From Cryoendolithus antarcticus (lineage: Eukaryota > Ascomycota > Dothideomycetes > Cladosporiales > Cladosporiaceae): a stretch of 64,000 bases of DNA. Each line of letters starts with the position of its first letter. The stretch's first letter is position 1. The stretch spans positions 124,001 through 188,000 of the forward strand of contig NAJO01000048.1 of assembly GCA_002077065.1 (NCBI GenBank). Direction: 5' to 3'. Positions 44,651 to 64,000 of this stretch are shown here, piece by piece. A program made the translations under genes and the position numbers. The notes below the pieces were generated by a model. That model was not told where the DNA came from, did not search any database, and saw only the letters and a list, made by a program, of their open reading frames with translations.

Positions 44651-45394
44651 TGCTGCCGAGATTGACGGCCCAGTGGGCTGACCTTAGCGTTGCCGTTCTT
44701 GCTCGTATGCTGCCTGGCGAGCCATGACGCCGGCTTGGGAAGACGGTCCCGCCGATTGGCTTGAGCGGAGTGGTTGTTGATCGCGCGCTGCGTGGCGGGA
44801 CATGACGACGGGTTGGGCAGTATGTCCAGTGGTCGGGCTTCGTGGTTGGTGTTCCATGACATCCGCGAGAACTCTTTCATATGTGTACTCCGCAACATGA
44901 GGCGAAGAATGAGTGAGCTCAGAGCGGGCGAGACGATCGATTGGGAACGACCTGCATGTTTAAGATGACTCGCATCGCGGGTAGGAGATGTGGGCGCGTG
45001 AAAAACATCTGCTGACCATTCAGCAGATGCTGTGCTCATAAGAGTGGACACGGACATACGTGCTGGCCATCGGAACAATTCTCTTGCGCTTGAAGTGCAC
45101 ATACTTTGAATGTTCCAATCCGAGTCTTCGCGTGATACCCGCATGGTCTCCGCGTGCAGCCATGTGGTCAATTGTACCTCTGTAGGGGAAGTGTATGGTC
45201 CCGGAAGGAGAGTGAATGCAAACTATAGGGTGGACTTCCAACTGGGGTTTCTGTCGCATTTTAATGTGTGTCCACCGCGCCGCAGTCGACAAGATCGAGG
45301 ACCTACTCTGTAGGCCTGTCCATTGTCACAGTGACATTATGATCGACCGCACTTTGTGACTCGAGTTACACGATCTACGCTCCATTCGCGAATC
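44651..45394. other. Intergenic, about 740 bp
   Basis: Between the pseudogene and the acyl-CoA dehydrogenase. It is open on the minus strand but shows no motif and no match to the intact paralogue. No gene supported. Confidence 0.4.
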
Positions 45395-46812
45395 TCACGC
45401 AAATTCCTCCTTCTCCACTCCCCACGTTCGACAAAGCTCCTCATATCTCTTCGCATAGCCATCATGCCTCCCCTTGATCGCCGCCGCAGTCTTCAATTGA
45501 TCCCTGCCGACCTGATGCCTATGTGCCGCATCAGGTCCATCGGCAATGCGCACGAATCGTGCATACATCCACATCTCGGGTAAAGCCGTGTGTTGTGTCA
45601 ATCCTTGACCTCCGTGCATCTGCATGCACTCGTCGATAATGTTGGCCGCCGTTTCGGGCACCATTATCTTCGAGGCTGCAATTGTTGCCCTTCCCGCCTT
45701 GTTACCGTAGACGTCCATGGTATGCGCTGCATTGAGTACCACAAGCCGCATCGAGTCGAGCTGAATACGCATGGCTGCAATGCGCTCAATGTTGGAGTCA
45801 AAATCGCCTATCAGCTTGCCTCTTGGCTTCTTGCGCGGGTCTGTTGCGCGTATGAGAGCCAGCTCGTAGGCTCGTTCAGTCTGACCGATGAGTCGCATGC
45901 AGTGGTGTATCCTCCCAGGTCCGAGACGGCCTTGTGCAATCTCGAAAGCGCGGCCTTCGCCCAGGATGATATTCGCGGCTGGTACGCGGGCGTTCTCGTA
46001 GATGTACTCGCCGTGGCCTTCCGGTGCACAATCGTAGCCCATGATAGTGAGATTGCGGACTATGCGAAAGCCGGGAGTGGATTTCGGGACTATAACCGTG
46101 GTGTGTCGTTTCCAGGGATCGGGATTTTCGGGATCTGAACATGCCATGAGGATGTAGACAGATAGGTCCTCGTTCCAAGCTACGTTGCCGTAGAGCTTGC
46201 GACCATTTACTACAAGGGTGTCGGGGTCTTTTGGGTCGCGAGTGATACGACAGGCGATGTTCGTGGCATCTGAGGACGCTACGTCGGGCTCTGTCATGCT
46301 GTATGCGGAGCTGGTCTCGCCATTCAAGAGGGGAAGAAGCCATTTCTGCTTTTGCTCCTCGTTGCAGTACTTCGCCAAAAGCTCGATGTTACCAGTCTCC
46401 GGCGCGTGACAGTTCATAGTCTGGCGTATCTTCATTAGCGTATTGTTCCAGACAAAGGAGAGGACATATTACTCACCTGCGCCGCCCAATAGCACCTCCC
46501 CATGATCTCCGCACAACAACTGTACTCCAAATTTGTCAAGCCAGGGCTCAAGTCCCCAAAGCTCTTCGGCAGAAAAAGATTGAACAGGCCTTCCTTCTTA
46601 GCTTTCACGCGTAGCTCTTGTATGAGTGGTGGTGTCTTCCACTTGTTCACCGCTAGCTGTGCCTTCACGACGCGTTCGGCGGGCACACATTCTGTCTCGA
46701 CCCAATGGTGTACGCGTCTTATGTAGTCTATCGCTTTCGGCGAGAGCTTCTCTTGAACCCACGGTGGAAGACGCGCGAACGCAGGATGAATGCGGTCCTC
46801 TGCGGATAACAT
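45395..46812 (-). CDS. Acyl-CoA dehydrogenase, ACAD10/11 type
   Basis: An FAD enzyme. Exons are 46812-46477 and 46420-45395 (453 residues; intron 56 nt). It has the ACAD fold in order: helical N-terminus (FARLPPWVQEKLSPKAIDY), SAYSMTEPDVASSDATNI (flavin and substrate loop), ITRDPKDPDTLVVNGRKLYG, the strand motif RVPAANIILGEGRAFEIAQG, RLGPGRIHHCMRLIG, and MQMHGGQGLTQHTALPEMW near the C-terminus. The TEPDVASSDATN and GRIHHCMR forms are those of the ACAD10/11 branch. In animals this branch is fused behind an APH-type kinase and converts 4-phosphoacyl-CoA to enoyl-CoA. Here the kinase is a separate gene (49484-50617) in the same cluster. No C-terminal peroxisomal tripeptide is seen (it ends EEFA). 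Confidence 0.9.
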
Positions 46813-47369
46813 CTTGGTGCAGTAGGACGCGAATCGATGATGAGTGGAATGTTGCGAGACGACTTACGATGTTTTGCTATACTACAACCATGTTCGTTGT
46901 GTTGAAGGGACTAGATGCATGTTACATGGTTTGGCCGAGGCGCGTCCATTGTTGGGGATGTCTGTCTCGTCTTTGCCGAAGAGGTGGTACAGGAAGACTG
47001 TAGCCGAACGAAAGCTTGGGCCGCTACAGCGAAATGCTGTGAACGCCGCCTAGAAGAGACTTCGGGAGAGACAATGCTCTCGCTGATTGTCTAAGTACGC
47101 ATGAACTTTCCGGGTGCGGGATAAGATAGCATTCTCGTCCATGGTGAGTTGCTGAGCGTTTCGCTGTGTTGCCACTTGCGTGGCCATTCACAAACGCAGA
47201 TGGCTTCGAGACACGAACAGACATGTAAAGGTGATAGTCGCAGCTCATTTCAACGAGGCCGAGTATAGTGGCATAGCTCCTCGGCCAGAAGGTATTTCAG
47301 GCTTTGCACAATTGGAGGAGTCTTTAAGTGGAGTCATGATCATTGATGTCAACTTTCCCTCATATCTGC
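46813..47369. other. Intergenic, about 560 bp
   Basis: Promoter side of the acyl-CoA dehydrogenase and 3' flank of the PRISE-like gene, both minus strand. No gene seen. Confidence 0.45.
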
Positions 47370-48621
47370 TCATGGTATGATCTTAGCCGCCCTAAACCTC
47401 TCGAACGCAGTCCACCAAGCCGTCTTCGAGTCAACCTCCTGCACCTCCCCACCATCACTCCACATCGCGTGCATGTTCGTCAAGTCCAATTGCCGGTCAA
47501 AGTTGAACATAGTCATGATGAAGTACTGGAACCCAGCGAAACTCCTATCATTGCCTACTCTCCCTGTTGCAAGCCCATGTTTCCTCTCCAGCGCCTTCCA
47601 CTGCTCGAGATGCTCGGTCAAATATTGGCCCGGTTGCGGTCCCGAGCCGCCAGCTGGTGGCGCTGTGCCTTTGAGACCGAAGAACTCGCAAATCACGGGC
47701 CATTTCTTGGACCACGAAGCGGGCTGGCTGTTGTCCGAGGTGTTCAGCGAACGGCCGCCACTGGCCTGAGGATTCAGTACACAATGGATTGCGAACCTTG
47801 CGACGATGTCCTGGGATGAGTCGTTGCTCAGGATCGGCCAGCTCTGCTCCGTGCCTGGGAACGCGACCTCGGCACCTTCTCCCTCGACTTCGCGGTAACA
47901 GGCCAGATAGGTTGCGAGGGTCTGAGCGAGGCAGTAGAAGTTGTTGTTTGGCACAAAGCCGATTACGACGTCCGGGCGCAGCTCGCACCAGGTCCAGGAC
48001 TTTGATTTGGCTTGCGACTCTAGCCAGTCGACCTGATTGTAGTAGAAGTTTTGGCTTCGGTAGGGCTCAGGTATCCGAGGGAGGTCTTCTGAAAGAGGCA
48101 GCTTGTCGGCGAAGGGAAACTCGGCCAGTGCCTGCACGCCGTATGCCTTGGTTCCTGTGGGCAGGAGGACGAACTGGAGAGCTGGTGAGAGATGCTCAAC
48201 GGCTAGGGTCGCACGCTCAAGGAGCTGAACGTTGATCCCAATCTCTTCGGTGGGGTCCTCCTTGAAGATGTATGCTAGAGCTGTGTCAGTCGACATACCT
48301 AGCAAGACTTCGCGTCTGTCACTCACCGAAGAAGAAGACATGGGTCACGGTATCAATGCCAGGCACCTTCTCTCTCATCTGCTGCTCCAATGCCTCTTGC
48401 CCGGCCTGATTTTGCAAGTCAATGCCACTGATAACTTGGAGCTTGTCACTCTTCGGCCATAGCATGTTCTCGCTCGGCGGTCGGTTTGCGAGCGCAGTCA
48501 CCTTGCTGAAGCTGTCCGGTGAAGGGTAGCCTTTGAGTAGCTCGTTGACGATGGCCCAGCCCTGGATTCCAGTGGCTCCGTAAATGAGTGCATGATTCTT
48601 CGTTTGATCGGTCGAGCCCAT
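47370..48621 (-). CDS. PRISE-type reductase (progesterone 5-beta-reductase/iridoid synthase-like SDR)
   Basis: PRISE enzymes are atypical SDRs that reduce the C=C bond of enones with NADPH; plant relatives act on steroids and the monoterpene 8-oxogeranial. Exons are 48621-48327 and 48280-47370 (401 residues; intron 45 nt). The dinucleotide loop is ALIYGATGIQGWAIV at residues 11-25. THVFFFALAYIFKEDP spans the splice. The catalytic Tyr is in QNFYYNQVDWLES, the NFYYxxxD form typical of PRISE in place of YxxxK. WTWCELRPDVVIGFVPNNNF and ARFAIHCVLNP follow. In this cluster it could reduce an enone such as an unsaturated cyclic ketone; that role is inference. It is divergent from the kinase gene across 860 bp. 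Confidence 0.88.
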
Positions 48622-49483
48622 GTTTGCAGTCTCACGTTCTCTAGGCTTGGGATTGTAACAACACGAGATAGGAAATGCTTAGTACCCTCTCTTATAAAAG
48701 ACCTCAAGGTCTTTCATTCGACCGTGAAAGCGGCTAAAGCGGAATGGATAAGTTGCGAGGACTGCTTAGAGCGCGACCACATGAGATGACCTAAGCGGCC
48801 TGCATGGCTTTCAAGCGAATATGATTGTTAATATGTAGGTATGTGGAATCAACGGGATAGCTTCGCTCCAAGCGCGAATCGCGCACAACGGCTGGCGCGA
48901 CTTGGTCGAAGTGGATATGATTGTTTAGCTGAGTGTAGAAGCCACCAGATAGCTTTGCTCGGAGAGCGAATCATGCACGTCGTCTGTCACGACCGGAGTG
49001 ATGCAGTGGGAGGGGAAAGGCAGAGTGGAGAACTCAGATGCGTAAAAGCAACTCCGCTGACTGATGGAGGCGCAATGGTGCGCGCCTAGTCCCAGTGGCT
49101 TCGTCCGCGGCGTATGGAATCATGCTGCACGTGTGGAACGGCATAGGCTCGTACTTGCCCTCACTGTAGCCAGAACTGTCTGTGCATGCACTCCCGGATA
49201 TTACCAACAGGCCCTCGTGCCTCGGGAGGTGCAAAAGTGTTCTGCACGAAAGGATGTAGCCACGTCCACACCTCAGACGGTAGGAGGTATGACTACGGTG
49301 CGCCGTTTGTTGTGTCGATGCGATTCCTTCTGAACTACATCAAGACCTCGGCCCAGCGCAGGGTACTGTGCATTGCCATGCGAGCTCCAGTTGGGAGCAT
49401 TGTGTAGCAACTATTGATCGACGGTAAGTACTAGTCTCTAATCTCACGTTCCCATCCGTCGACGCGAGTCCTTGCCATCCGAC
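48622..49483. promoter_or_regulatory. Divergent promoter region PRISE / APH kinase
   Basis: An 860-bp region between two outward-facing cluster genes. It holds a duplicated element at 48856-48886 and 48948-48978 (separate entry), each preceded by ATATGATTGTT. No gene seen. Confidence 0.5.
48819..48978. repeat. Imperfect duplicated element in divergent promoter
   Basis: Each copy has ATATGATTGTT (48819 and 48915) followed 22-26 bp later by a 31-bp block starting GATAGCTT (48856 and 48948). The blocks share GATAGCTT, GCTC, AG, GCGAATC and GCAC in the same spacing, with 25 of 31 positions identical. They lie 92 bp apart in direct orientation. A binding role for a cluster regulator is inferred only. 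Confidence 0.6.
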
Positions 49484-50617
49484 ATGGCAGGTGCAGTGCG
49501 GCAGCCCATTGACCAGGAGAAGCTGGAACGATACCTCGAGAAGCATGCGCCAGAGCTCAAGACACCGTTAGAGCTGAAGCAGTTCGGGTTCGGCCAATCG
49601 AATCCTACATACCAAGTCACAGATGCTACAAAGCAACGCTATGTGCTCCGTAAGAAGCCGCCAGGCAAGCTGCTATCGAAGACAGCGCACCAGGTCGACC
49701 GCGAATTCCGAATCATCCATGCACTGGAAAATACCGATGTGCCCGTACCACGAGCAATTTGTCTGAGCGAAGATGACAGTATTATCGGCACGAGCTTTTA
49801 TGTGATGGAGTTCCTAGATGGCAGGATGTTTGAGAACCCATGTTTCCCTGGTGTCAGCGAAGCGGAGCGGAAGGCGATGTGGCGGGGTGCCGTAACGATA
49901 CTGGGCAAGCTACATCGAATACGGCCGAAGGATGTTGATCTAGAGTCGTTTGGGAGGTCATCGGGGTTCTATAACAGGCAATTGAAGACTTTTACACGCC
50001 TGGCAGAGTCACAAGCTGCTGCAAAGGATCAGGACTCTGGCGAGGAGGTTGGCCAGCTACCGCACTTCAACGACTTTCTGGACTTCTTCCAGGGAAGCCA
50101 GCCTCAGGATCGAAGCACACTGGTGCACGGCGACTACAAAATTGACAACCTGGTGTTTCACAAGACGGAGCCTCGAGTGATTGGCATACTAGACTGGGAG
50201 ATGGCAACTGTGGGTCATCCCTATACAGATCTCTGTAACCTCGTCTCGCCCTGGACAATCAGTCAAGCAACGCCGTCGTGGCCACGGATTCATGCTGATA
50301 CGGCATTCCTCCCACCATTACATAGCAAGAGTACGGCTAGCCAGTATCCTGGCCTCCCCACTAAGGGAGAAGCTGTTGCATATTACGAGGAAGCAGTGGG
50401 TTTCAAGATACCTGCCAGAGAGCTCACGTGGGCTACCAGCTTTGCGCTGTTCAGGGATTCGATCATCTTCCAGGGCATTGCCGCCCGATATGCGACCAGG
50501 CAAGCTAGCAGCGAGAAAGCTGTCGCGTATGGTAGAGAGAGAGAGCCCTTTGCCGAGATGGCCTTTGAGATGGTCAAGAAGGTCAAAGAAGCTGAAAGCG
50601 GTCGATCGAAGCTGTAG
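49484..50617 (+). CDS. APH-family kinase, ACAD10/11 N-domain type, peroxisomal (SKL)
   Basis: Single exon, 377 residues. The frame extends 4 codons upstream to a TTG, so the ATG at 49484 is used. The kinase-like fold is clear: GFGQSNPTYQVTD (nucleotide loop), RYVLRKKPPGKLLSKTAHQV (lysine strand, RKKPPG form), VMEFLDGRMFENP, the catalytic loop LVHGDYKIDNLVFH, and the metal-binding ILDWEMATVGHPYTDLCNL. These are the exact motif forms of the APH domain in animal ACAD10/ACAD11 and in bacterial 4-hydroxyacyl-CoA kinases such as LvaA. The protein ends RSKL, a canonical type-1 peroxisomal signal. It would phosphorylate the 4-hydroxyl of a 4-hydroxyacyl-CoA so that the ACAD partner can eliminate phosphate. 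The substrate is inferred. Confidence 0.92.
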   Translation: MAGAVRQPIDQEKLERYLEKHAPELKTPLELKQFGFGQSNPTYQVTDATKQRYVLRKKPPGKLLSKTAHQVDREFRIIHALENTDVPVPRAICLSEDDSIIGTSFYVMEFLDGRMFENPCFPGVSEAERKAMWRGAVTILGKLHRIRPKDVDLESFGRSSGFYNRQLKTFTRLAESQAAAKDQDSGEEVGQLPHFNDFLDFFQGSQPQDRSTLVHGDYKIDNLVFHKTEPRVIGILDWEMATVGHPYTDLCNLVSPWTISQATPSWPRIHADTAFLPPLHSKSTASQYPGLPTKGEAVAYYEEAVGFKIPARELTWATSFALFRDSIIFQGIAARYATRQASSEKAVAYGREREPFAEMAFEMVKKVKEAESGRSKL

Positions 50618-51363
50618 TACAGATCATTTTGTCCACCATAGACTCCTGCTCCTACTTCTCCTAGATTTGGAACGTATACCGCAATCTCGGTGGCTTGTCC
50701 GTGGCAATTGGTGCTATGGTGGGTCTGGGCGAGGCATGGTTTCGGTGCAAAGGCGCCGACAGCCTTACTCTCTCGAAAACATAATACGTACCAATACCAC
50801 TATCGCAGCTGCACGTGTGGAAGTACAAGGGCCTTCAGACTTTGGCATCGAAGGCAAAATCACGTCGTCGCCGCGCTGTCACGTGCACTGCCACTCGAGT
50901 CATGTCAAGCTTTGTCCCTGGAGCTTTACGGAGGTGCATGTGGAGTGCGGAGCTCTGGACCTCACCTCCACTTTCGCCATGCTGGCAAACCTCTTCCGTT
51001 ATCGATCATGCGCGACGTCCCCGCGCGTCTCGTTGACCAGGCTTGTATTGCATAACCGGTAATCACCTCACCTTCGGCGCATGGCCATCGGCACGTTGTC
51101 GGACCCTCTTTTTGTTCACAAAGCAGCGCCGGCGACTGCAGACGGACCAAGGTATGACGATTTCTCTACTGTTGGAGGAGGATCTATTGCTTCCAACGCG
51201 TCGCGCCCCTTTGTCGTTTGTACAATGATCCATCCTTGCACCTCTTCTTCCTCCATCTACTATCCCCTTCCACCTCCGTCGAAACGTCAAGGATCCTACA
51301 CGTATCAGAGGAAACAATCGGCCCAACACATCGAGCATTCCGATCCACCGCCATCTTACTACA
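50618..51363. other. Intergenic, about 745 bp
   Basis: 3' flank of the kinase and 5' flank of the AtuA gene, same strand. Overlapping small frames have no motif. The last 60 bp before 51364 is rich in C and A. Confidence 0.45.
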
Positions 51364-53383
51364 ATGCCGTCCATGAAACGCCCCGTTCGCATAGCCGGCT
51401 CTTCAGGTGGCTTCACCGACCGACAACGCGCGATCTCCAGCCTGGCAAACTGTGATGTAGATGTTATCGTAGGCGACTGGATGTCAGAATGTACGATGTC
51501 CTGGCACGGAGCCGCGAAGGCAGACTTCGTGTCGAAAGGCGTCAGCGACGAAGATCGTGCTGGACTCTACGATCCTAGCTTCATGGAGAACTTGACGCCT
51601 GCCCTGGAGACGCTACAGAGGAAGGGGATCAAGCTCGCGGTCAATGCTGGAGCTAGTGACACAGAAAAACTGGCTAAGGCTGTTGTGGAAGTTGTGAAGC
51701 AGCAAGGACTGGACTTGAAAGTTGCGTGGATCGAGGGGGACGAGGTTATGGAGGCTGTCAATAAGCTGTTGGCTGCAGGTGAGAAGTTTGAGAACATATG
51801 TTTCGGAGGTGAGCTCAAGGACTGGGGGTTTGAGCCACTGGCAGCGCAGTGCTATCTCGGTGGCGCAGGCATCGCCGAAGCACTACGGCAAGGAGCTGAT
51901 ATCATCGTATGTGGCCGGGTTGCCGATGCAGCGCCGACAGTGGGTGCATGTATGTGGTGGCATGGCTGGAACCGCGAGAGCGACTTCGACCCGATTGCGA
52001 GCTCCCTGATGGCAGGACACTTGATCGAGTGGTCGGTCTTTCCATGTACCTCAATGTATTGCGTCTGCTGACGAACTGATATAGCTCTTCATACGTATGT
52101 GGGGGTTACTACTCCGGCTTCAAGGATCTCTTCGACGGCTGTGAAAACATCGGCTTCCCAGTTGCGGAGATCCATGCTGATGGTTCCTTCTACATGGAGA
52201 AGGAGCCCGACACAGGTGGCGAGATCAGTGTCGGTACATGTACGAGTCAGCTACTTTACGAGATCCAAGGCCCGCAGTACTACGGATCCGACGCTGTGGC
52301 CTTGCTCGAGGGCATCAAGATGACCCAAGTCGAGAAGGACAAAGTCTACGTCGAGGGTGTGAAAGGCAAGGCACCACCAACAACGACCAAAGTTGGTATC
52401 ACAGCGAAAGGCGGCTGGCAAGCGGAGTTTCACTACTATCTTTGCGGACTAGACTTGGAGCAGAAGGCTGAGTGGACTGAGAAGCAAGTACGCTACTCCA
52501 TGGGCAAGAACGCACAGAAGTTCGATGTGCTGGAATTCACTCTCAACGGCTACTCGCCTGACGATCCTCGAAACCAAGACGTCGCTACCGCAGATCTGCG
52601 AGTGTTTGTCCAGACCAAAGACCGCTCACTGGTCGTGCGAGATAGCATGGAGGTCCCTGGCTTCAATCGTTGGTGCATGGAGAACTTCTTGCAATCTTGT
52701 CCAGGCGCTACTATCGAGAACGACATTCGGCAAAGTGCCGGCAAGGAGTTTTACGAGTACTGGGCTGCACTGCTTCCGCAGAGTGAGGTGAAGCACAAGG
52801 TCAAATTGATGTGGACGAGCGATGCTATCGATATTGCAGTGCCCAAGTCTGTACAGGAGTATGGGTACAAGAGAGAAGAGAGGCAATGGAGCTATGAGAC
52901 GAGGAGTCCCAAGGCATTAGAGAGCTTTGGCATGACTACGAGGGCGCCGTTGGGATGGGTCGTGCTGGGGCGATCTGGAGACAAGGCGAGCGGTACGTTG
53001 CGCGTCAAGTCTGCTCAATTTACGTACACTGACAAGGAGCAGATGCAAATATCGGCTTCTTCACACGGCAGCAGGACGAATATGACTGGCTCAAAGCTCT
53101 ACTCACCATAGCCAAGATCAAACAACTACTCGGTCCTGAATACAATGGAGGTGGGGTGGATCGGTTGTAAGTACTGACAACACATCATCGCCCCAACGCA
53201 GACTGACATGGTCACAGTGAGATCCCTGGCATCCGGGCTGTACACTTCTTGCTCCACGATCACTTGGATCGATCGTACAATGCATCGAGTACGTACGACG
53301 GACTCGGCAAGAATGTGTGCGAGTACTTGCGGGCTAAGCACATTGAGGTGCCGAATGTCTTTCTACGACGAGGCAGGGTGTAA
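51364..53383 (+). CDS. AtuA-family protein (acyclic terpene utilisation, DUF1446)
   Basis: Bacterial AtuA belongs to the citronellol/geraniol degradation cluster; its reaction is not settled. Exons are 51364-52031, 52085-52992, 53043-53166 and 53218-53383 (621 residues; introns 53, 50 and 51 nt; the first donor is the weaker GTCGGT but keeps phase). Family marks: RIAGSSGGFTDRQRAI near the N-terminus, VIVGDWMSECTMSWHG, LAVNAGASD, GADIIVCGRVADAAPTVGAC, IECSSYVCGGYYSGFKD across intron 1, and LGRSGDKASDANIGFF across intron 2. The C-terminal small domain is ALLTIAKIKQLLG to the end, RRGRV. Length is normal. No peroxisomal tripeptide. The biotin-dependent carboxylase that partners the pathway in Pseudomonas is not in this window. 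Confidence 0.9.
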
Positions 53384-53890
53384 GGGTATGCGACCACGTA
53401 GCGTGATGAACAGTCTCATTAATGCTTTCACCAACACCAGCTCTTTGCAGCCTTTGTAACATGAGCTTTCCTGACCGTGATGGCATGCATTTCTCAACAG
53501 TCGTTGCGGAGTGATGATGAATCCACAACCAGCACGAGTCATGAGCCGTAGAGAGGCGGAAGCTGGCTCTTCTTTCCCGGGTGAGTCTTCCACGCATGCA
53601 CTCTCCACGCTCCAGTCTCCACACGGATGGCCATCGGCATTGCTTCTCATTTGCGAGCCCTCGGCGGGTCTCGACCTCGTACACTATTCGGTGGAGCTGC
53701 CGGGCATCTATTGACGCGTTCACGCGATCTGGCGTGCGCCCAGATATCTATAGATGCAACAGATGTAGGGTAAGTCAAAAGTGCTGCACGTCTGCACACA
53801 TCTCTCGCGTCTTTCTATCGTATATCTCCTCGCTCTTGTCAGTCTTGCGCTACTGAACTTCGAATCTAAAGCACGCAGTGGCATTTCACA
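53384..53890. other. Intergenic, about 500 bp
   Basis: Between AtuA and the monooxygenase, both plus strand. No gene recognised. Confidence 0.45.
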
Positions 53891-56018
53891 ATGGCAGACT
53901 TCCCTATTCGAGAAGCCATACGAGCACCAACGCTGGGCAAGCGGAAGAGCCGAGCAGACGACGATGCGAAGCAACGTCTAGGTGGTCCAATTCACCAGGA
54001 GAGACATGTCAAGATCATATGTGTGGGTGCCGGAGCTTCTGGCCTGCTTTTTGCCTACAAGATCCAGCGCCACTTTGAGAATTTCGACTTGACGGTGTAC
54101 GAGAAGAACCAGGAAGTCTCAGGTACCTGGTGAGTCGTACAACAGTCTCCTGAAATCTACGTTGAGAGTATCTCCGCTCGTCTGCGAGTCCAGAGGCCCT
54201 CTCCCTGGCTGTGAAGCCTTGACTGAGGGTCTTCACCCTCCACTGCAACAATCAGCGGTCGACCTCTGTATCCTTGAGAGCCATGCATGCTGGCGCACTT
54301 CTCGCGGGCGGAGTCGATGCAGACAGGGCACTCGTCATGTATATGGCAGTAGCAGAATGCTCTTTAGACGTTCGGAGGGCGAGCCCAGCTGACATTTACA
54401 ACAGGTGGGAGAACAAGTATCCAGGCTGCGCTTGCGATGTACCGGCACACAACTACACTTGGAGCTTCGAGCCAAAAGTCGACTGGTCTGCAGTCTACGC
54501 TGGCTCTGGAGAAATCTTCGAGTACTTCAACGACTTTGCACAACGGTATAGGCTACATAAGTACGTGAAGACGCGGCATCAGGTAGTCGAGTCTGTCTGG
54601 GATGATGGCGACAGTCGATGGCACGTCAAAGTCAAGGACCTCGCAAGTGGGGAGGAAGTACACGACTCGTGCGACATCTTGATCAACGCTTCGGGCATCC
54701 TGAACAATTGGCGATGGCCGGCGGTACCTGGATTGCACGACTACAACGGTACTCTGCTCCACACAGCCAACTGGGACAGCAGCGTGAACCTCGCGGGTAA
54801 GCACGTCGGTCTGATCGGGAACGGCTCCTCCGGCATCCAAGTACTGCCTACGATACAGCCGAAGGTCAAGCACGTCACGACGTTCATCCGCGAGCCCACC
54901 TGGGTGTCTCCAGTGCAGGGTCTTGAGCAGCATGTGTTTACCCCACAAGAGAGGAATGATTTCGAGACAAAGCCTGGGAATCTGCTCGAATATCGCAAAG
55001 GCATCGAGACTGGTCTCAATGGACAGTTTGGCCTCTTCCTCAAAGGCTCGACGGTCAACAATAACACCCACGACTACTTTGTTCAGCAAATGACGGAGAA
55101 GATTGGTGACGAGCGTCTTATCTCGAAGCTTATTCCCAAGTGGAGCGTGGGCTGTAGGCGTCTGACACCTGGCGTGGGCTATCTCGAGTCTCTTACCAAG
55201 CCGAACGTTACGGTAGTCTATGGCGAGATCGAGAAAGTCACAGAGCGAGGCTGCGTGTGCGACGACGGAAACGAGTACCCCCTTGATGTCCTCATCTGCG
55301 CTACTGGATTTGACACGACGTTCAAGCCTCGGTTCCCACTCATTGCGCCAAATGGCAAGAATCTGCAAGAAGAGTGGGCGAAAGAGCCCAAGTCATATCT
55401 CGGCGTTGCAGCAGCGGAGTTTCCGAACTATCTCATCTTCTTGGGACCAAATTGCCCAATCGGCAATGGACCGGTCTTGTCGGCCATTGAGCTACAGGCA
55501 GATTACATGTGCAAGCTGATCGATCATTGGCAAACGCACAACATCAAGACGTTCTCGCCGAAGAAGGAGGCGGTCGAGGATTTCATACAGCATAAGAACG
55601 AGTTCATGAGCAGCACGGTTTGGGCTGATCCTTGCCGGTAAGTGCCATTGGATTTGGTCACCAGCTGTAAGTACTGACTAGCCTCTTCAGATCCTGGTAT
55701 AAAAGTGGGCTTGTAGATGCACCCATCACTGCTCTATGGCCAGGTAGCACACTCCACTACATCGAAGCGTTGTCCACCCTACGCTTGGAGGACTTCAATG
55801 TCGAATACGCAGGGAATCGATTCGCATGGCTCGGCAACGGATATTCGCAGACTGAACTCGACCAAACTGCGGACTGGGCGTACTACGTTCGCGACCGCGA
55901 TGATGGAGAATGGCTCAGCCGGGGCAAGCGCAGGAAAGAGCTCACTGCGAGTGGCACTGTGAAGAGGACGGGAGGAGTCGACTTCACTGGAAGAGGGAGT
56001 GCAGAAGCGAAGCTATAA
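53891..56018 (+). CDS. Baeyer-Villiger monooxygenase (FAD/NADPH), ends AKL
   Basis: It inserts an oxygen beside a ketone to give an ester or lactone. Exons are 53891-54129, 54405-55637 and 55691-56018 (599 residues). Intron 1 is unusually long (275 nt) but its ends are good, and it joins EVSGTW to WENKYPGCACDVPAHNYTWS, the conserved GTW..NRYPGxxCD region. FAD loop VGAGASGLL; NADPH loop GLIGNGSSGIQV. The Baeyer-Villiger fingerprint FxGxxxHxxxW(P/D) is present as YNGTLLHTANWD, with Tyr for Phe. ICATGFDTTFKPRFP is the conserved ATG motif. The protein ends EAKL; AKL is an accepted type-1 peroxisomal signal, so I infer a peroxisomal enzyme, matching the SKL kinase nearby. It probably acts on a cyclic ketone. 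Confidence 0.92.
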
Positions 56019-56271
56019 GTAAAAAAGGCTGGCTCCACAGTTGTGAAGGTCCGGTGGTCTTCACAGTAGTCCTTGGGAGTGGAACAACCCAACACACCGC
56101 GGCAAAGGACCAATCAGCTGTCGCACTGTGGATAGATACAGAACATTATACGTAAGAAGTGTCTCTCGGATGTCCCACGAGAGCCAGATCTGGCACTGAC
56201 AGCGCATCGCTTAGTAGCGTACGAGCCTCAAGACTCTGCGAAGCGCGAGGGTCTATTTCAATGAGCACATG
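56019..56271. other. Short gap between convergent genes
   Basis: About 250 bp of 3' flanks; nothing else seen. Confidence 0.5.
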
Positions 56272-57164
56272 CTACTGGCATGTATAGCCACCGTCCACTG
56301 CGAGCCCTTGTCCGGTCATGAAGCTCGACATCGGGCTTGCCAGGAACGTGATTCCATCTGCGATCTCCTCCATGTCACCCAGACGTTGTTGCGGCACTTT
56401 CTGCACCTCCGCGGCCATAACTCCACCAGCCTAAATAATAGTCAGCTCTATGTTCCATCTCACTTGAAGAAACACACGTACAGTGGCAGCCTTCAGTAAG
56501 GGCGTTCCGACGTATCCAGGACACATTGCATTGATGCGTATCCCCTGGGCTGCATACATCACAGCATCGGTCTTCGTCAAGCCCATCACTCCATGTTTGC
56601 TGGCCGTGTAAGCTACGGCAGGCGTCGCAGGCGACGAAGCAACAAGACCCAGCATCGATGCCACATTGACGATGACGCCTCTGTTACCTCTCGGCAGAGG
56701 ATCGAGCGGTTCCTGTTCCAGCATCTGCCGTATCTGAGCCCGTTGGCAGAGCCAGACGCCGTCGAGGTTGACCGCCATGGTCTTGCGCCAGCTGTTGAAC
56801 TCGAGAGAATGCGTCGCCGCTTCACCCCCTATGCCTGCGTTGTTGACGGCTATGTCGAGGCGGGAGAAGGCTTTCACTGTCTGCTCGACAGCGGAGTTGA
56901 CAGCAGACTCGCTGCTAGTGTCCATCTGGATGTTCAGGACTTCAATGCCAGGGTACTGAGACTTGAGGTGGGCACTCGTGTCTTCCAGCGCCTCTGATCG
57001 GATGTCGCAGAGAGCCAGTCTTCGCACGCCATGATGCGCGAAGGCATAGGCTGTGTGTTGTCCGATACCTACATGTTGTGAGCTTACATCGGTACGTCGT
57101 GTACATCATGCGTACCAGACCCGGCTCCTGTGATAAAGGCCGTCCCTCTGAGCAGAGAACTCAT
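56272..57164 (-). CDS. Classical short-chain dehydrogenase (cluster member)
   Basis: An NAD(P)-dependent alcohol/ketone oxidoreductase. Exons are 57164-57116, 57068-56482 and 56430-56272 (264 residues; introns 47 and 50 nt). The 49-nt first exon carries the start and TAFITGAGSG; the loop GAGSGIGQHTA is completed across intron 1. Then DIRSEALEDT (cofactor-choice region; Asp suggests NAD+), NNAGIG, NVASMLGL (catalytic Ser), AYTASKHGVMGL (catalytic Tyr and Lys) and FMTGQGLAVDGGYTC at the end. All catalytic residues are present. In the cluster it would suit oxidation of a cyclic alcohol to the ketone used by the monooxygenase. That role is inferred. It is divergent from the MFS gene. Confidence 0.92.
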
Positions 57165-57955
57165 GTCTATTAGTTAGACTGGTGGCAGCCGTGTCATACT
57201 GTCCAGCATCGCGTTGTCTCGTATTACAAGCTCCCTCACGTGATGTCCACTGAGTGCATTGACTTGACTAAGGCCGCAGGGTAGTCCTGTTTGGACAACC
57301 TCCTCGAACTGATCCCGACATCCGACGAGCGTCTTGGAGTTGGTGAAGCGATGCTTTCACCAAGTCACACTGGAGTGGAGGAGATGAAGTGCTTGGAAAC
57401 ACCGGGACGAGCCGTCATGCACGACAGGGGTATGGGTATCGTTTTCCGGACCACACATCGCGCCGCGTCACCCGCCACTCGAGTCTCTCTCATGCTCGCG
57501 GACACGCATGTCGTATGCCGGAGTACTATAGCTCATCTCCACAACTTGTAGGGCTCACGACAGCTGAGCCGTCGTGGAGCACGGGTCACAGCCTGCACGA
57601 TGGACCGCCATCTCCGCTCCCCACAGACTGCCCGGACGATACACCCAGCGGTGCGCGAGCCCAGAGCATTGCCCATGTGGACGGAAGTCGCCAGCCACAT
57701 CAGCGTGCTATTGTTGATAGGAAGACCTCGCAGAACCGACTTGCGCCACGTGGATGCCATGTGTGCGTGGCCTGTTCAGATCTGAGGTGAAGTAGTCTAG
57801 GAGTAGGTCGCTCTCATCCCACAACGCCTCGAGCACGGTTCGTATCCCGATCGTCGTTTTTGGCAGAGTGTCTCTTGTCTATATATGTACGTTGCCTACT
57901 TCCTCCACAGCTTCGCTCGGTTTCACGCGCCGCCAGGAACTTCCGACATATCAAG
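57165..57955. promoter_or_regulatory. Divergent promoter region SDR / MFS transporter
   Basis: A 790-bp region between two outward-facing cluster genes. Short plus-strand frames carry no motif. A weak B-box-like GGTTCGTATCC near 57838 has no tRNA fold around it. Confidence 0.45.
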
Positions 57956-60282
57956 ATGGACCTCAATAAAGATGCAGTCCACCGACAGGACGATGTCGAG
58001 TCTGGCTACGATGCGAAAATCAGGGACGACGATGTAGTCATCCATAACGACACGTTCGCGATCAAGCGAGAAGCACTTGGCACCGATCTACCACCGAACT
58101 ACTGGCGATCCCCTGGCTTCATTGGCACTGTGGCAGCGTTGTGCTTTGGCAACATCAGCAATTACCTGTCCTTCGTGCTCCCAGCCAATTCGTTAGCCCT
58201 TATCAATGAGACTCTCGGGCCCAGTGAGTTCTCAACGGGATCTTGCGCACCCGACGAGCTGTCACACTGATTGTATCACCAGGCAACAACATCAGCTGGG
58301 TGTCTTTGGCCTACACGCTTGGACTTGCAGTCGGCTTCCTGATCGTTGGCCGAATGTCAGGTATGCGTCGTAGAGCCAATTATAGTGACCTTCGCACCCG
58401 CTGACACTCGAACAGACATTTTCGGGAGACGGTAAAGGTGCCTTGTTGCCTCTAGATCGCCTGAGCTAACGCAGCAAGTCAGATGGTTTTTCATTGGCGG
58501 CAATTTCCTTGCGTTGCTTTGCGGCGTTATGGGCGCAGTAGCCAAGGACATCAATACTCTGATCGGTGGCAACATACTGGGAGGTCTGGCGGGTGCTGTC
58601 CAGATCTCCTTCACAGTTGCCATCTCGGAATTGGTAAGCTACAGTAGCGAACTTCCAATGCAGGTATTACAGCTGACGAGCTTGACTAGGTGCCGAATAA
58701 ACGTACAGCACACAGCACCGTTGCGATGGACATGGCTGACAATGACCAGATCGACCTCTATGGGTGGTGGGCATCTTTGCATCAAGCTTCCAATTCGCAG
58801 CCTTTGGGCCGGTCATTGCGCAAGCACTCGTCGCCAACACCGTACTTGGCTGGCGCATCAATTACTACATTAACATTACTGTTGCTGGCATGGCCGTGGT
58901 GCTGTTCGTCCTGTTTTGTAAGCTCTGCATCATCGCGCTGGACCCTTGGAGTCTCCGGACTTTCCCCTGCACGGTGCTGACTCGGGCCAGATCATCCCCC
59001 GAACTTCAACCTCCTCCACCAGAATCGTTCCAAGATGCAGCAGCTCAAGCGTCAAGATGGCGTAGGTCTCGTGCTTTTCACCGGTGGTCTTATCTTATTC
59101 ATCATGGGGCTTTCCTGGGGTGGAACTGTAGGTCTAAGTCCTATGTCAAGTGATGACGCCAAAGCTGACTCCTTGCAGTCCTATCCTTGGAATTCGGCAC
59201 ATGTTGTAGCGACCATCGTCGTAGGCTTCTTGTGCCTTGTTGCCTTCGTCGCATATGAGGCTTTCGTGCACCGGGGCGACCCTCTACTTCCGCTTCACCT
59301 GTTCAAGACTAAAGGCTACCTCGCTATGGTATTGACCGCGATGGTCGGATCATGTGTCTACTACAGCATGAACATCCTATGGCCCAGCCAGATCGCGTAT
59401 CTCTTCGGCGGGAGCCCAGTACACAAGGTACATTGGCAGCGACAATCGAAGCGTTGGAAAGATTGCTAACATACTGAGATAGGGCTGGCTAGCCTGTGTG
59501 GTCGGTGGCTCCTGCCTCGTAGGCCAAATTGTTGGTGCCATACTCTGTCAATACATCAAGCAAAGCAGATACATCCTGATCGGTGGCTGCGTGCTGCTGC
59601 TTTCTTTCTCCGCGGCGATGGTCACCATCGAGCCTGGCCAAGAAGCTAAGGGTGTGGGATTGATGGTAAGCAGACTCGATCTTTGTGACTCGCGCCCCAG
59701 TCGCTGACGATTATCTAGTTCATGGCCTGCTTCTCCGTTGGTGTTGTCGAGATCTGCTCACTGGCCCTAGCACCTCTGGCTCTGCCGTCTGAGGATATTG
59801 GCGCCGCTACTGGTGCCTTGGGCTCAATCCGCTCCGGCGGTGCAGCAGTGGCAACGGCTATCTACGTCGCCATATTGAACAACAAGCTCAAGGTGTACAT
59901 CCCTCAGTACGTGACGCCAGCTGCCACAGGAGCTGGGTTGCCAGAGAGCTCCCTGCCGGATCTGTACTCTGCACTTACCACTGGCGTTCTCACCGCGGTG
60001 CCCGGCATCACACCAGCGATCGAAGCCGCAGTCGGAGCAGCAAATGCGATCGCTGCAGCGCAAGCCTTCCGGTAAGTCTGATCGCAGTCATCCGCTGCTA
60101 CTATCGTGCTAAACATGTGCAGGTATGTCTGGTACGCAGTCATCGCCTTCTGCTGTCTCGCCCTGGGAGCAGCATGTTTGACTGTCAACTATGGAGAACA
60201 TCTGACAGATACGGTGGAGCGGAAATTGCACGGAAAGACGGTGCACGTGGGAGCAAATCATGAGCCACCCGAGAAAGTCTAG
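57956..60282 (+). CDS. MFS transporter, TRI12-like (14-TM efflux type)
   Basis: A proton-coupled membrane pump. Eleven exons: 57956-58223, 58283-58360, 58416-58431, 58483-58633, 58690-58702, 58750-58917, 58991-59127, 59179-59427, 59483-59665, 59719-60071, 60123-60282 (591 residues). The two tiny exons (16 and 13 nt) are set by the motifs: GRMSDIFGRRW (MFS motif A) needs exon 3, and ELVPNKHRPLWVVGIFAS needs exon 5. A polar N-terminus of about 55 residues leads into repeated hydrophobic segments. The layout is that of the TRI12 group, named for the trichothecene pump. GSIRSGGAAVATAIYVAIL is typical of it. In this cluster it may import the substrate or export toxic intermediates. The 51-nt intron 7 is open in frame. 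Confidence 0.92.
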
Positions 60283-60928
60283 CCATGCTGTACGATGGGT
60301 AGCTAGAGAATGTACATATTGTCTATTCAGCAATTTGACTGTCACAAGATTGACACGTGCACTTCTGCATGACCGAGAAGCTTCATCGCGAGTCATTTCG
60401 GTAGTCGGCCAACTTGGGCGGGAGGAGTGGAGACGTGGAGAGGCGCGGAGGTGTGGACTCTTCCAAGACCTCACCTGCAGACGCGGGCCTGTATATCTGG
60501 GATGCGCATCTTCTGGTACGAGAATCTGTTTTTTGGTGCTGGGACCTGATTGCTATCAAGTCGGACCGATGCAGGCAACACGTAATCGACGATACGCCCA
60601 GCGAGCTCGCATCAGGAGGACAGTATCGGACTTCATCCCCGTGAACAGACAAGCCTGGCGATGCTCACGCTCGTGTGGCGTGCGGGGTCTCCAGATGGTC
60701 GTCCGACGATCTATTGACTCGTGGCCAATGAGCTGTGTTCCGACATTCTACCTTGACCCTCGAATGGTCTGGGCAAGGACAAGGCGTCAAGCATAGCTCG
60801 TGCACGGCTGTCGACGAGCCGGTCACACCTTGTGCATCCGTTCGCAGACGACCAGGTAAGCTTCTTTGGTTTCTGTGTACGCGTTTCAGTCACGCACCTT
60901 TCTGTCAACCGCTCTTTCACAACTCTGT
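60283..60928. other. Intergenic, about 645 bp
   Basis: Between the transporter and the regulator, same strand. No gene recognised; several overlapping small frames look accidental. Confidence 0.45.
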
Positions 60929-63647
60929 ATGAACGACAGAATGCCTCCTGCCGTAGTGCCAGATGCTCCAATGCCCGCCAACTACGAGGTGCCGGGTGCG
61001 ACAGAAAACGAGCAGGGAAGTTCAAAACGTCAAAAGTCACGGCATCGTGCAAGCGTTGCATGTGTGAGCTGTAGAGAGCGGCGAATAAGGGTCAGTCTGA
61101 TCGTAGCGAGCACACACATTGTCCCGGCGCTAACCCTACCAGTGCGTTGTACCAGCGGGCGACAGCGAGTGTGAACAATGCAAGCGCACCAGCCAGGACT
61201 GTGTAATCCGGATCGACGACGAGAGAAGACGACCAATCTCAAGAGCCTATGTCAGCACACTTACAGATAGAGTGTCGATGCTGGAGACCATGCTCAAGGA
61301 CCAGGGAACTGAGCCACCGACCATCACATATCCTGCAAAGACTACGAGAGGCGAGTCCTCGCCGGCACGACCGACATCAATACATCAGAACACTGGAGGC
61401 GGCGACGAGCAAAATGATGCTGAGCAGAGCACCACAAGTCCGGAGAGCAACCTCGATGAGACTACAGATTCCATGCAGGTAGAAGCGGCACCTGTCATGC
61501 TCGGCACATCTGATCAACAGGTCCATCATGAACAGGAGATCACGCATGGAACTCCAATTGACGACAAGAACCAGAACATGGTCACTCGTCTTCTATCAAC
61601 TCGCGGGCATCTCTCGTTTGACCAGCTGAGTGGCCGGCTTCGATACTTTGGACCTACCGTAAACTCACATGTCTACTCAGCGCTGGGAGCAGACTCTGCA
61701 GCGAGCAATCGCGAGTCGCTGGAGCAAGCGCGTCGCGCCGAAAAGATAATTCGGACATTACCGCTAGAGACCCACGACTATCTCATGGACATGTTCTGGA
61801 ATTTCTACAACTCTGTCTTGCACATCGTCTCAATGGACGCTTTCAACGCGGACCGGGAAAGAGGCGGGACTCAATATTACTCTGGCTTTCTCCACATCTG
61901 CATACTTGCTATGGGCTTTCGGTTCGCCGATAAGACCAGGGAGGACATCAATCGCATCGCTTTGCCAGACCGGGAGAGCACATTGCATAGAGAGGCGAAG
62001 TACATGCTCGATCTCGAGCTTGAACGGCCCGGTGGGATTCCTTCAGTGGCTGCTCTGCTGATCCTCGGGGACTCAGAGGTTGGTGTGGGACGTGACAATA
62101 CTGGCTGGCTTCTCAGTGGCATGGGAATGAGACTGGCGTACGATCTCGGTCTTCACCTTGACAGCAGTCAGAGTGGTATGTCTCAACAGGAAATTGACGT
62201 ACGACGCATGACACTTTGGGCTTGCATCATCTACGATCGATACTGGTCCCTCTTCCTAGGACGACCGACGGCGATCAAAAGCGACGATGTAGAGATCTAC
62301 TCCCTCGCCGCACAATTCGAGAAGCTTGGAACTTGCAGACCGGCGGGAGCGGGAAAGACAACGAACACACGAATCTACGAGGCGCTACTGGATCTTATGG
62401 AGATTGCTTCGAGTATCGTGGAACATCCGAATCATCGCAAGCAAGGAGAAGATGTTCGGACACCCGATCAATCAGCGTATCTCCGCATGGCAGCTGTCGA
62501 TCGCGAGCTTCACGCTTGGGCTCAACGATTGCCGGCTGACCTACGCTATACGGAAGAGAATCGCGTGTCGGCACCGTACTCGTTCTATCTGTTACATCAA
62601 CAGTACTACGCTGTGCAGATCTTGCTACACAGGCCGTTCGCTCGATACGACGATACCAATAGCCCAGAGAGCGATGATCCCACTGTAAGTGCTTTGGACC
62701 GGCACTTCTCGGCCGCCAGCAGAGCGATTTGCACAAAGGCCGCTGTAGCTGTTGCCAGGATCTTCTGGCAACACAGGCAGCGATTCGATGGCAAGCAGAT
62801 TTTCTGCATCGGGATGCAGCATGCAGGTACCGCAGCTACGGCTCTGATCGCTGCACTAGCGTACATACCGGATACGACAGATCGTAACAACAACCTACAG
62901 TACCTCGAGGTACTACATGCTGCACTGCGAGATATGGCACACGGCTATCAGCCCGCAGAACGGATGGCAGCTGTACTCGACGCAGTGATGGTAGAGCTAC
63001 GTGGCGGTCCTCTAAGTCCAGGCAAATTACCACCTTTACCACCTCAACAACCATCGACCGTCCCAGCACGGCGTGGTAGTGCGGCACTTGGCGCCAGCAG
63101 TGAACGACCAAGCATAAAACGACGGCAGACATCGAAAACAAAGAAGGCAAAGACTATGAATCCGCCTCCAGTGGGTACCATTGCGCAGCATTGGGCAAGT
63201 GATGCAAGCGACCGTCAGATCTTGCAGCCCATACACAGACATCAGCCCAGCGACGCCAGCGATCGCCTAAGCGCGACTTCGCAATCACTAACGGCACCCA
63301 ACGACTTCGTCATGATCACTCCTCAATCGCAGAACGCCGACCTCATGCAGGCCGGTAGCTTGTTGCCTACACCAGGCATGCCGAACATCCTATCAACAGC
63401 TCGTAATGACTGGGCAGGACCCGACTTGAACGATTTCCCCTCCATGCCGTCCCTAACTGGTCTTCCGAATTTGCCTGACGCAGAAATGACTACTTTCGAC
63501 TTTATGACCTTTCCGACTGAGGATGATTGGACAAGATGGCATTCGGGCACTAGCGAAGCGGTGGATCTAGACTCTTTCCGGCCTCGGGGAAGGTCACAGA
63601 TGCTCAATTTCGCAAGTCCACCAATGGGCGGGATCATGAACGGTTGA
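60929..63647 (+). CDS. Zn2Cys6 transcription factor (likely cluster regulator)
   Basis: Exons are 60929-61090 and 61143-63647 (888 residues; intron 52 nt). The binuclear zinc cluster is split by the intron before its third Cys: CVSCRERRIR joins CVVPAGDSECEQCKRTSQDC, giving C-x2-C-x6-C-x8-C-x2-C-x6-C. A coiled linker (YVSTLTDRVSMLETMLKD) follows, as usual for dimerisation. The fungal-specific factor domain spans about 250-480 (YLMDMFWNFYNSVLHIVSMD, GWLLSGMGMRLAYDLGLHLD, RMTLWACIIYDRYWSLFLGR). The C-terminal 220 residues are Pro/Ser/Thr-rich with an acidic-aromatic end (TTFDFMTFPTEDDW), a likely activation region. The frame is open to a TTG at 60866; ATGs at 60929 and 60941 are the real choices. 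Position at the cluster edge suggests local control. Confidence 0.93.
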
Positions 63648-64000
63648 TGGAACCACGGACTCCACGGTCAAGATGTTTATGTTTGTACGCTATGAACGGC
63701 AGGTATCCATAATAGGGAGCTCAGGGTAAGTTAGTCCACCATCGAGTGTTCATCGTGAGCGGGATATTCCAGCTCCAGCGGAAATCCAATGCTCCATCAT
63801 TCCTGCTCCGCTTGTATGCAATTCCACTCCCAGATCGCCCTCCCCTTAGTCTACACTCCAGTCGGTATCTGTCGCAATGTCAGTTGCTGCCGTTATATCA
63901 GAGACTGCTTCCATGTACTGACCGCTGCTCCGCATATATGTGCTCAGCCCGGCGACATCCCTACTTGCCGTAGCCTTCACATCTCCATTTCCCAGGAACG
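63648..64000. other. Intergenic to window end
   Basis: 3' flank of the regulator. No gene recognised in 350 bp; cluster genes could continue beyond the edge. Confidence 0.4.

Follow-up and report, generated by a model that had tools for sequence, protein, structure and literature searches.

A conserved, probably catabolic cluster of about 19 genes in Cryoendolithus antarcticus, with two Baeyer-Villiger monooxygenases and a putative 4-hydroxyacyl-CoA bypass pair

The bypass of the ACAD10/11 type, which deals with 4-hydroxyacyl-CoA, was worked out in bacteria in 2017 and in mammals in 2024-2025. The origins of the 4-hydroxy acid substrates of ACAD10/11 are described as largely unknown (PMC12440821). 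In the fungus Grosmannia clavigera a 30-gene cluster responsive to terpenes has been described (PMC3680317), the Baeyer-Villiger monooxygenases (BVMOs) CMQ_6956 and CMQ_7007 are listed as peroxisomal terpenoid enzymes (PMC8120277), and the transcript of the acyl-CoA ligase CMQ_6959 showed a change of 1107 when a monoterpene mixture was compared with mannose (Table 3 of PMC4368105). Because the gene numbers lie near one another, they suggest that CMQ_6956, CMQ_6959 and CMQ_7007 form one locus, part of the 30-gene cluster. Cryoendolithus antarcticus (Dothideomycetes, Cladosporiales) lives in Antarctic rock, and a 64,000-nucleotide stretch of its 47 Mb, 149-contig genome (the window; C93:124001-188000, contig C93 position = window position + 124000) carries part of a gene cluster in which BVMOs stand beside a kinase and an acyl-CoA dehydrogenase (ACAD) of the putative bypass kind.

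The cluster comprises ~19 genes in ~39 kb, ~20 kb of it past the window edge. It is real and conserved and probably catabolic, and its substrate is probably a ring-shaped ketone, which may be terpenoid; on balance, we favour a conserved catabolic cluster acting on a ring-ketone route with a 4-hydroxyacyl-CoA bypass. Sequence shows which genes are present, that they are conserved, and what the kinase and ACAD are, down to catalytic residues. Gene models were built from open frames and splice sites, and families were assigned by Pfam, mostly on the main exon. The original prediction had placed eight genes in one peroxisomal cluster for breakdown of a cyclic, possibly terpenoid, ketone or alcohol. 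All eight were modelled at the coordinates given below, seven of them cleanly spliced and the MFS1 frame less sure (weak inner splice sites), and Pfam confirmed their families (AtuA, adh_short, Fungal_trans, APH, PRISE, Acyl-CoA_dh, FMO-like and TRI12). The proposal of a single degradative-type cluster is supported, but with ~19 genes, not eight: the contig carries eleven further cluster genes between 63846 and ~84.5 kb, adding BVMO2, PRISE2, two short-chain dehydrogenases/reductases (SDRs), an alcohol dehydrogenase (ADH), an aldehyde dehydrogenase (ALDH), a P450, two small EthD-like proteins, a second pump of the major facilitator superfamily (MFS) and an acyl-CoA ligase. The CoA ligase that had been reported missing does lie outside the window but belongs to the cluster, ~9 kb past the edge. 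The genes are as follows, those past the edge in window-based numbering (PTS1, peroxisomal targeting signal type 1):

45395..46812, minus strand: ACAD10/11-type acyl-CoA dehydrogenase, 453 aa, 2 exons, no PTS1
47370..48621, minus strand: PRISE reductase 1 (PRISE1), predicted enone reductase, 401 aa, 2 exons; Pfam PRISE E=4e-119 (main exon)
49484..50617, plus strand: APH-type kinase of the ACAD10/11-LvaA kind, 377 aa, 1 exon, C-terminal SKL
51364..53383, plus strand: AtuA family protein, 621 aa, 4 exons; Pfam AtuA E=1.6e-75 and 5.2e-80 (two main exons)
53891..56018, plus strand: BVMO1, 599 aa, 3 exons, C-terminal AKL
56272..57164, minus strand: SDR1, 264 aa, 3 exons; Pfam adh_short E=8.3e-43 (main exon)
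57956..60282, plus strand: MFS pump 1 (MFS1), TRI12 type, ~9 exons, several weak inner splice sites; Pfam TRI12 E=9.9e-37
60941..63647, plus strand: Zn2Cys6-type regulator, 884 aa, 2 exons; Pfam Fungal_trans E=2.4e-22 (main exon)
63846-66047, minus strand: BVMO2, with its 3' end (63846..64000) inside the window
66.8-67.8 kb, minus strand: SDR2
68.4-70.1 kb, plus strand: ALDH, model incomplete
70.6-72.0 kb, minus strand: P450, model incomplete
72.9-74.7 kb, minus strand: acyl-CoA ligase, C-terminal ARL
75.2-76.1 kb, plus strand: SDR3
76.1-77.5 kb, minus strand: PRISE2
77.9-78.6 kb, plus strand: small EthD-like protein (EthD1), by eye; first exon without Pfam match, model incomplete
from ~79.3 kb, plus strand: ADH, model incomplete
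81.1-81.7 kb, plus strand: second EthD protein
82-84.5 kb, plus strand: MFS2, TRI12 type, model incomplete

To judge by their residues, the kinase and the ACAD resemble the pair that serves as 4-hydroxyacyl-CoA bypass in ACAD10/11 and LvaA/LvaC. The best PDB relatives of the ACAD were human ACAD11 (2wbi, E=8e-95), a bacterial putative ACAD (4hr3, 7.1e-94) and mouse ACAD11 (8v3u, 1.9e-90), and an ordinary ACAD came next, far behind (E=9.1e-31). In mouse ACAD11, R626, H634 and R637 are absent from conventional ACADs, D753 is the catalytic base and R631 is general (PMC12440821); the window ACAD has the same residue at all five aligned positions. The phosphate-binding Arg/His/Arg and the catalytic Asp instead of Glu are kept in QGRLGPGRIHHCMR (from residue 275) and RIADGPD (from 403), and QGRLGPGRIHHCMR is unchanged in 12 of 13 ACAD orthologues. 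For the kinase, the best PDB relatives were 3dxp (E=3.6e-61) and then the kinase part of mouse ACAD11 (8v3v, E=2e-54). Its signature residues, the catalytic Asp and Asn of HGDxxxDN and the CoA-side Arg residues, are kept in HGDYKIDN from 215, DRE from 72 and NRQ from 164; the Arg next to the alpha-C Glu was matched by description, at residue 84 by aligned-chain count versus 86 in the paper. The signature residues (compared with PMC12440821 and PMC11342911) support the earlier assignment of the pair as a 4-hydroxyacyl-CoA bypass.

Elsewhere the genome holds a single other kinase of this kind (59% identical, on contigs C97 and C79) and a single other ACAD (43% identical, on C64 and C67), each as an apparent homeologous pair, and neither a partner gene nor a BVMO or PRISE gene was seen by eye among the neighbours of the other kinase on C97 or of the other ACAD on C64. 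With these relatives on separate contigs among other neighbours, the cluster therefore owns a dedicated pair.

The cluster genes that were looked up recur on contig C96, most pieces being 92-98% identical at the protein level. Further matches in the same genome searches were also mostly paired; because of this pairing the genome is taken as duplicated or hybrid. The literature search found no paper on genome duplication in C. antarcticus. In the C96 copy every gene looked for is present, with the order reversed and SDR2-ALDH inverted as a block (C96:91886-94775 versus window-based 66840-70113; both genes retained). The ratio of nonsynonymous to synonymous divergence (Ka/Ks) between homeologues was 0.037 for ACAD, 0.100 for PRISE1, 0.036 for the kinase, 0.027 for AtuA, 0.026 for BVMO1, 0.030 for SDR1, 0.024 for the first exon of MFS1, 0.041 for the regulator, 0.033 for BVMO2, 0.036 for SDR2, 0.007 for the ALDH core, 0.033 for the P450 core, 0.104 for the ligase, 0.053 for SDR3, 0.074 for PRISE2 and 0.186 for the MFS2 core. 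Thus 15 of the 17 cluster genes or cores tried, a set that left out the two EthD genes, lie at 0.007-0.104, and the ADH core was not computable; two flanking control genes gave 0.102 and 0.100. The cluster genes are kept under purifying selection in both subgenomes.

Five stops were met when the C96 copy was read in the frames of the window models (one in BVMO2, one in the ligase, two in PRISE2 and one in the MFS2 core), and tblastn gave two in the ligase, a single one close to the C-terminus of BVMO2, and another beside a frame change in PRISE2. Those in the ligase are best explained by missed introns. The synonymous divergence (Ks) of PRISE1 between homeologues (47370-48621 versus C96:112494-113742) was 0.13, against 0.35-0.85 in the other 15 cluster genes that gave a value, as if gene conversion had occurred. 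Collinearity of the homeologous contigs (window 30001-100000 against C96:70001-130000) stops on the left at ~43.7 kb, <2 kb past the ACAD gene, and on the right reaches ~93 kb, the end of the compared C96 part.

Conservation in other fungi was surveyed by three protein searches (kinase; ACAD, PRISE1 and BVMO1 segments; ligase, PRISE2 and BVMO2 segments), with the best 120 matches listed for each. These cover seven query families, leaving out AtuA, the SDRs, the pumps and the regulator, and a family that is not listed among the best 120 is not thereby absent. Six of the seven gave orthologues among the matches listed, and the acyl-CoA ligase gave none there. Best-hit classes of the 360 listed proteins were clean for the ACAD, for BVMO1 and BVMO2 and for PRISE1 and PRISE2 (BVMO1 entries, for example, scored 63-89% to BVMO1 versus 33-42% to BVMO2) and unclean for the kinases, many of which score alike against both types, so a tree was used for these. 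Among 51 kinases, the window kinase fell within a group of 15 (support 100/100) that is sister to 11 Dothideomycete entries (joint support 94/72). A wider FastTree tree, built from the 85 of 120 listed kinases with a named organism and contig, gave a cluster clade of 31 named entries plus the window kinase (support 0.975). With the clade extent read from this tree, contigs identified by their length and the genome's own second kinase copy (P0001) scored as a miss, 14 of 31 named cluster-clade kinases had another cluster family on the same contig, versus 0 of 54 other kinases (Fisher 7e-8, related species being treated as independent). A smaller count over 50 chosen named kinases gave 14/25 versus 0/21, plus 0/4 for Sordariomycete entries.

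Two or more of the six families shared 28 of 106 contigs, and on the 12 of these 28 where serial locus tags could be compared, the span was <=20 tags in every case (by eye). In Recurvomyces the kinase, ACAD, BVMO1 and PRISE2 lie within 20 tags (LTR86_002565, _002569, _002571 and _002584); Saxophila has LTR77_005751, _005757 and _005758, Zasmidium has PRZ48_013293 and _013294, and Melanomma carries the kinase, PRISE2 and BVMO2 on a single 46 kb contig. Pairs were also found in Coleophoma (BP5796_11479/_11486) and Polytolypa (AJ80_01938/_01944), both of which we take to fall outside Dothideomycetes. On either side of the kinase tree there are kinases linked to PRISE2 or BVMO2, which suggests that the cluster is old. 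Co-conservation, the lack of which would have counted against the original prediction, therefore held as far as it was covered: because the genes are kept in both homeologous copies and six of seven families share contigs in other fungi, the cluster is more than chance.

Type I BVMOs have the fingerprint FxGxxxHxxxW(P/D). BVMO1 carries YNGTLLHTANWD, close to this with Tyr replacing Phe, and matched cyclohexanone monooxygenase (4rg3) at E=4.9e-62; judged by its relatives it is plainly of type I. The first BVMO of the Pseudomonas putida camphor pathway is of another type. In BVMO2, whose orthologues are 67-96% identical, FAGPKMHSASWD fits the fingerprint; the pattern used matched two Rossmann motifs in BVMO1 but just the first of them in BVMO2. 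PRISE1 matched 3-oxo-delta4,5-steroid 5-beta-reductase (6el3, E=2.7e-24) and carries TGTKAY and NFYY motifs. The Baeyer-Villiger and PRISE families were thus correctly named beforehand, but undercounted, as the cluster holds two BVMOs, both probably of type I, and two PRISE genes. The acyl-CoA ligase belongs to the 4-coumarate:CoA ligase type, its best match in the PDB having E=1e-75. The AtuA protein, 621 residues long, had no sequence relative among PDB structures. Its family stands as predicted, but it points only weakly to terpene-like carbon, because AtuA occurs at six loci in the genome (apparently three homeologous pairs) and no carboxylase of the Atu pathway is among the identified cluster genes. 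That pathway includes the geranyl-CoA carboxylase AtuC/AtuF and the hydratase AtuE (PMC4847356), none of which was identified in the cluster, so that AtuA is the only gene in common.

The following pathway may be proposed, in which we infer each reaction and its place in the sequence, the kind of substrate and the regulator's hold over the genes. The P450 and the dehydrogenases (SDRs, ADH) would convert a ring compound to a ketone, the PRISE enzymes would saturate conjugated enones, and the BVMOs would form a lactone or ester by inserting oxygen beside the ketone. The acid left after opening, reached directly or via the ALDH, would be made a CoA thioester by the acyl-CoA ligase and be shortened by beta-oxidation until a 4-hydroxyacyl-CoA arises, whose hydroxyl would otherwise block further oxidation. 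The APH kinase would then phosphorylate the 4-hydroxyl, and the ACAD10/11-type enzyme would convert the 4-phosphoacyl-CoA to 2-enoyl-CoA.

Several observations weigh against this ring-ketone route. No lactonase or esterase was recognised at 45-89.7 kb in a scan of clear frames only, in agreement with the earlier report that the lactonase is missing. The EthD fold class is a dimeric alpha-beta barrel that includes lactone-handling enzymes, and on that ground one EthD-like cluster protein might replace the lactonase. The NFYY motif of PRISE1 was not found in PRISE2. Human ACAD11 has a helix-breaking, highly conserved Pro463 (PMC11342911); at this site, located by residue numbering of the 2wbi alignment, the window ACAD has Ala111, its orthologues have Ala in 12 of 13 and Pro in 1 of 13, and the genome's other ACAD of this kind has Ser. 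Because of this Ala, the pair is assigned, from its sequence, to the broader kinase-ACAD kind in common with LvaA/LvaC, and identity with ACAD10/11 is not claimed. Targeting signals were mixed: among full-length proteins, chosen by length limits from the matches listed, PTS1 occurred in 1/13 ACAD, 0/26 BVMO2, 0/15 PRISE1 and 0/53 PRISE2 proteins. Finally, promoter motifs in 14 promoter segments did not exceed shuffles, so co-regulation is unsupported.

In the same tally PTS1 was frequent in the kinase (40/54) and in BVMO1 (16/38), and the C-terminal ends in both genome copies were SKL for the kinase, AKL for BVMO1, ARL for the ligase and EEFA for the ACAD. From these counts and ends, the final steps of the route are likely peroxisomal and the first steps not. 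The label 'peroxisomal' holds for the kinase and partly for BVMO1 and the ligase; the ACAD mostly lacks PTS1 and may lie in either compartment, and BVMO2, PRISE1 and PRISE2 lack it wholly. A type 2 signal (PTS2), a motif with a His/Gln position, was considered for the ACAD and dropped, as N-terminal RIHPAFARL resembles PTS2 without that position and was not kept in the 13 listed orthologues (by eye). The regulator is the largest open frame of the cluster; in its spliced model, CVSCRERRIRCVVPAGDSECEQCKRTSQDC shows six Cys to the eye. The cluster is probably under its control. CGG N17 CGG was the best of 84 gapped Zn2Cys6 patterns (7 seen versus 2.2 expected) and was rejected as unconvincing; the commonest 7-mer, with 10 copies in the 14 segments, was likewise rejected, being equalled or exceeded in 7 of 60 first-order Markov shuffles.

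Other explanations may be weighed. Linear or lipid substrates could be handled by sub-terminal oxidation of alkanes or methyl ketones, with a BVMO forming the ester, or the kinase and ACAD could serve gamma-lactones and 4-hydroxy fatty acids. BVMOs are able to use linear ketones, and an ALDH and a CoA ligase are at hand. ACAD10/11 take linear 4-hydroxy acids, in cells from 4-hydroxyvalerate (C5) to 4-HDHA (C22) (PMC12440821). However, ester cleavage needs an esterase, and none was recognised, a gap that weighs equally against lactone opening, and the PRISE reductases hint, by analogy only, at ring or iridoid-like enones. We regard linear substrates as rather unlikely in themselves, but the ring and linear readings are not far apart. 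Making or tailoring of a secondary metabolite, with an oxidised, BVMO-rearranged product exported by TRI12-type MFS, would account for the two such pumps, and biosynthetic clusters of fungi often hold P450, BVMOs, PRISE-type reductases, TRI12 pumps and a Zn2Cys6 regulator. Against it, no backbone enzyme (polyketide synthase, nonribosomal peptide synthetase or terpene synthase) was seen at 45-89.7 kb, where no profile search was aimed at these; the bypass pair, CoA ligase and ALDH are degradative in character; and purifying selection and wide conservation also speak for another role, which makes biosynthesis quite unlikely. That the kinase and ACAD are adjacent by chance of gene order and stand outside any BVMO pathway is very improbable: each has a second copy elsewhere in the genome and the pair may be a general activity, but 14 of 31 named cluster-clade kinases, and 0 of 54 others, share contigs with families such as BVMO and PRISE in other fungi, and the four-gene Recurvomyces group also speaks against chance.

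A more specific form of the ring-ketone route, doubtful as a whole, is a two-ring, two-compartment pathway with camphor-like logic, in a cluster predating the split of the two main Dothideomycete lineages. The P450, a dehydrogenase and a cytosolic BVMO2 (no PTS1 in any of the 26 full-length orthologues) would open the first ring; the ligase would activate the acid; BVMO1, with its PTS1, would open the second ring on the CoA thioester in the peroxisome; and the resulting hydroxyl would be removed by the dedicated peroxisomal 4-phosphoacyl-CoA step. If true, this would link the chemistry of ACAD10/11 with the degradation of terpenoids or other alicyclic compounds.

On the left the cluster is flanked by a DUF7025/AAA ATPase gene at 40.4-43.3 kb, and on the right by DUF6594 frames and then, from ~89.7 kb, by unrelated genes (the latter by eye). 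Frames at 43747-45222, 1985-3121 and ~98.0-98.6 kb look by eye like one family without a name ('...SPHGVLRDHGLEALAQKL' and '...SNHGVLHSQGLQALAQKL' are examples) that flanks the cluster on both sides; the two scanned, 44170-45222 and 1985-3121, had no Pfam match.

For the ring-ketone route, the presence of a separate kinase-ACAD pair alongside two BVMOs, in a fungal cluster that seems to be old, would offer a concrete source of 4-hydroxyacyl-CoA, namely opened lactones. The cluster predicts use of ring ketones by C. antarcticus and its plant-associated relatives, and it offers chemists a new set of BVMOs.

Compared with described bypass systems, the cluster has separate kinase and ACAD genes, as do LvaA/LvaC of Pseudomonas putida, whereas the kinase of mammalian ACAD10/ACAD11 is fused to the ACAD. 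The mammalian enzymes combine an APH-type kinase with a special ACAD whose R626, R631, H634, R637 and D753 are kept in the cluster (PMC12440821), and human ACAD11 differs in having Pro463 (PMC11342911) where the cluster ACAD has Ala. Of 323 bacterial loci holding a confirmed kinase relative, the best 80 were surveyed, the available DNA being short for many of them. An ACAD10/11-like neighbour was present at 56 of these 80 loci, another ACAD at 11, a CoA ligase at 19 and an SDR at 34; a strict form of the ACAD signature was found at 17. Neither a BVMO nor AtuA was found at any of the 80, many of them short, whereas the cluster pair sits beside two BVMOs.

Among degradation pathways, that of Rhodococcus erythropolis DCL14 for carveol and limonene resembles the proposed route in its oxidation of an alcohol to a ketone, enone reduction and BVMO step to a seven-membered lactone, and in its later hydroxy acid, CoA activation and beta-oxidation; it differs in a dedicated epsilon-lactone hydrolase, none being seen in the cluster, and a kinase-ACAD bypass is not mentioned for DCL14 in the available text (PMC4097962). 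The camphor genes camABCDEFG of P. putida are like the cluster in including, in order, a P450, a dehydrogenase, a BVMO, a CoA synthase and a second BVMO, but they are bacterial, and PRISE, a kinase and AtuA go unmentioned in that portion of the source (PMC4097962). The closest described fungal analogue is the terpene-responsive cluster of G. clavigera, likened here by published descriptions and not by sequences: it is fungal and has two BVMOs and an acyl-CoA ligase at nearby gene numbers, their membership being inferred. No Grosmannia protein was named among the best 120 matches listed in each of the three protein searches. The original prediction that no such fungal cluster had been described stands for this gene set as far as titles and abstracts of the open-licence literature searched go, where none was found, but not for the kind of cluster, given the 30-gene terpene-responsive one (PMC3680317). 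The kind is thus partly known already, and the cluster, larger than the window shows, is a variant with its own putative bypass pair.

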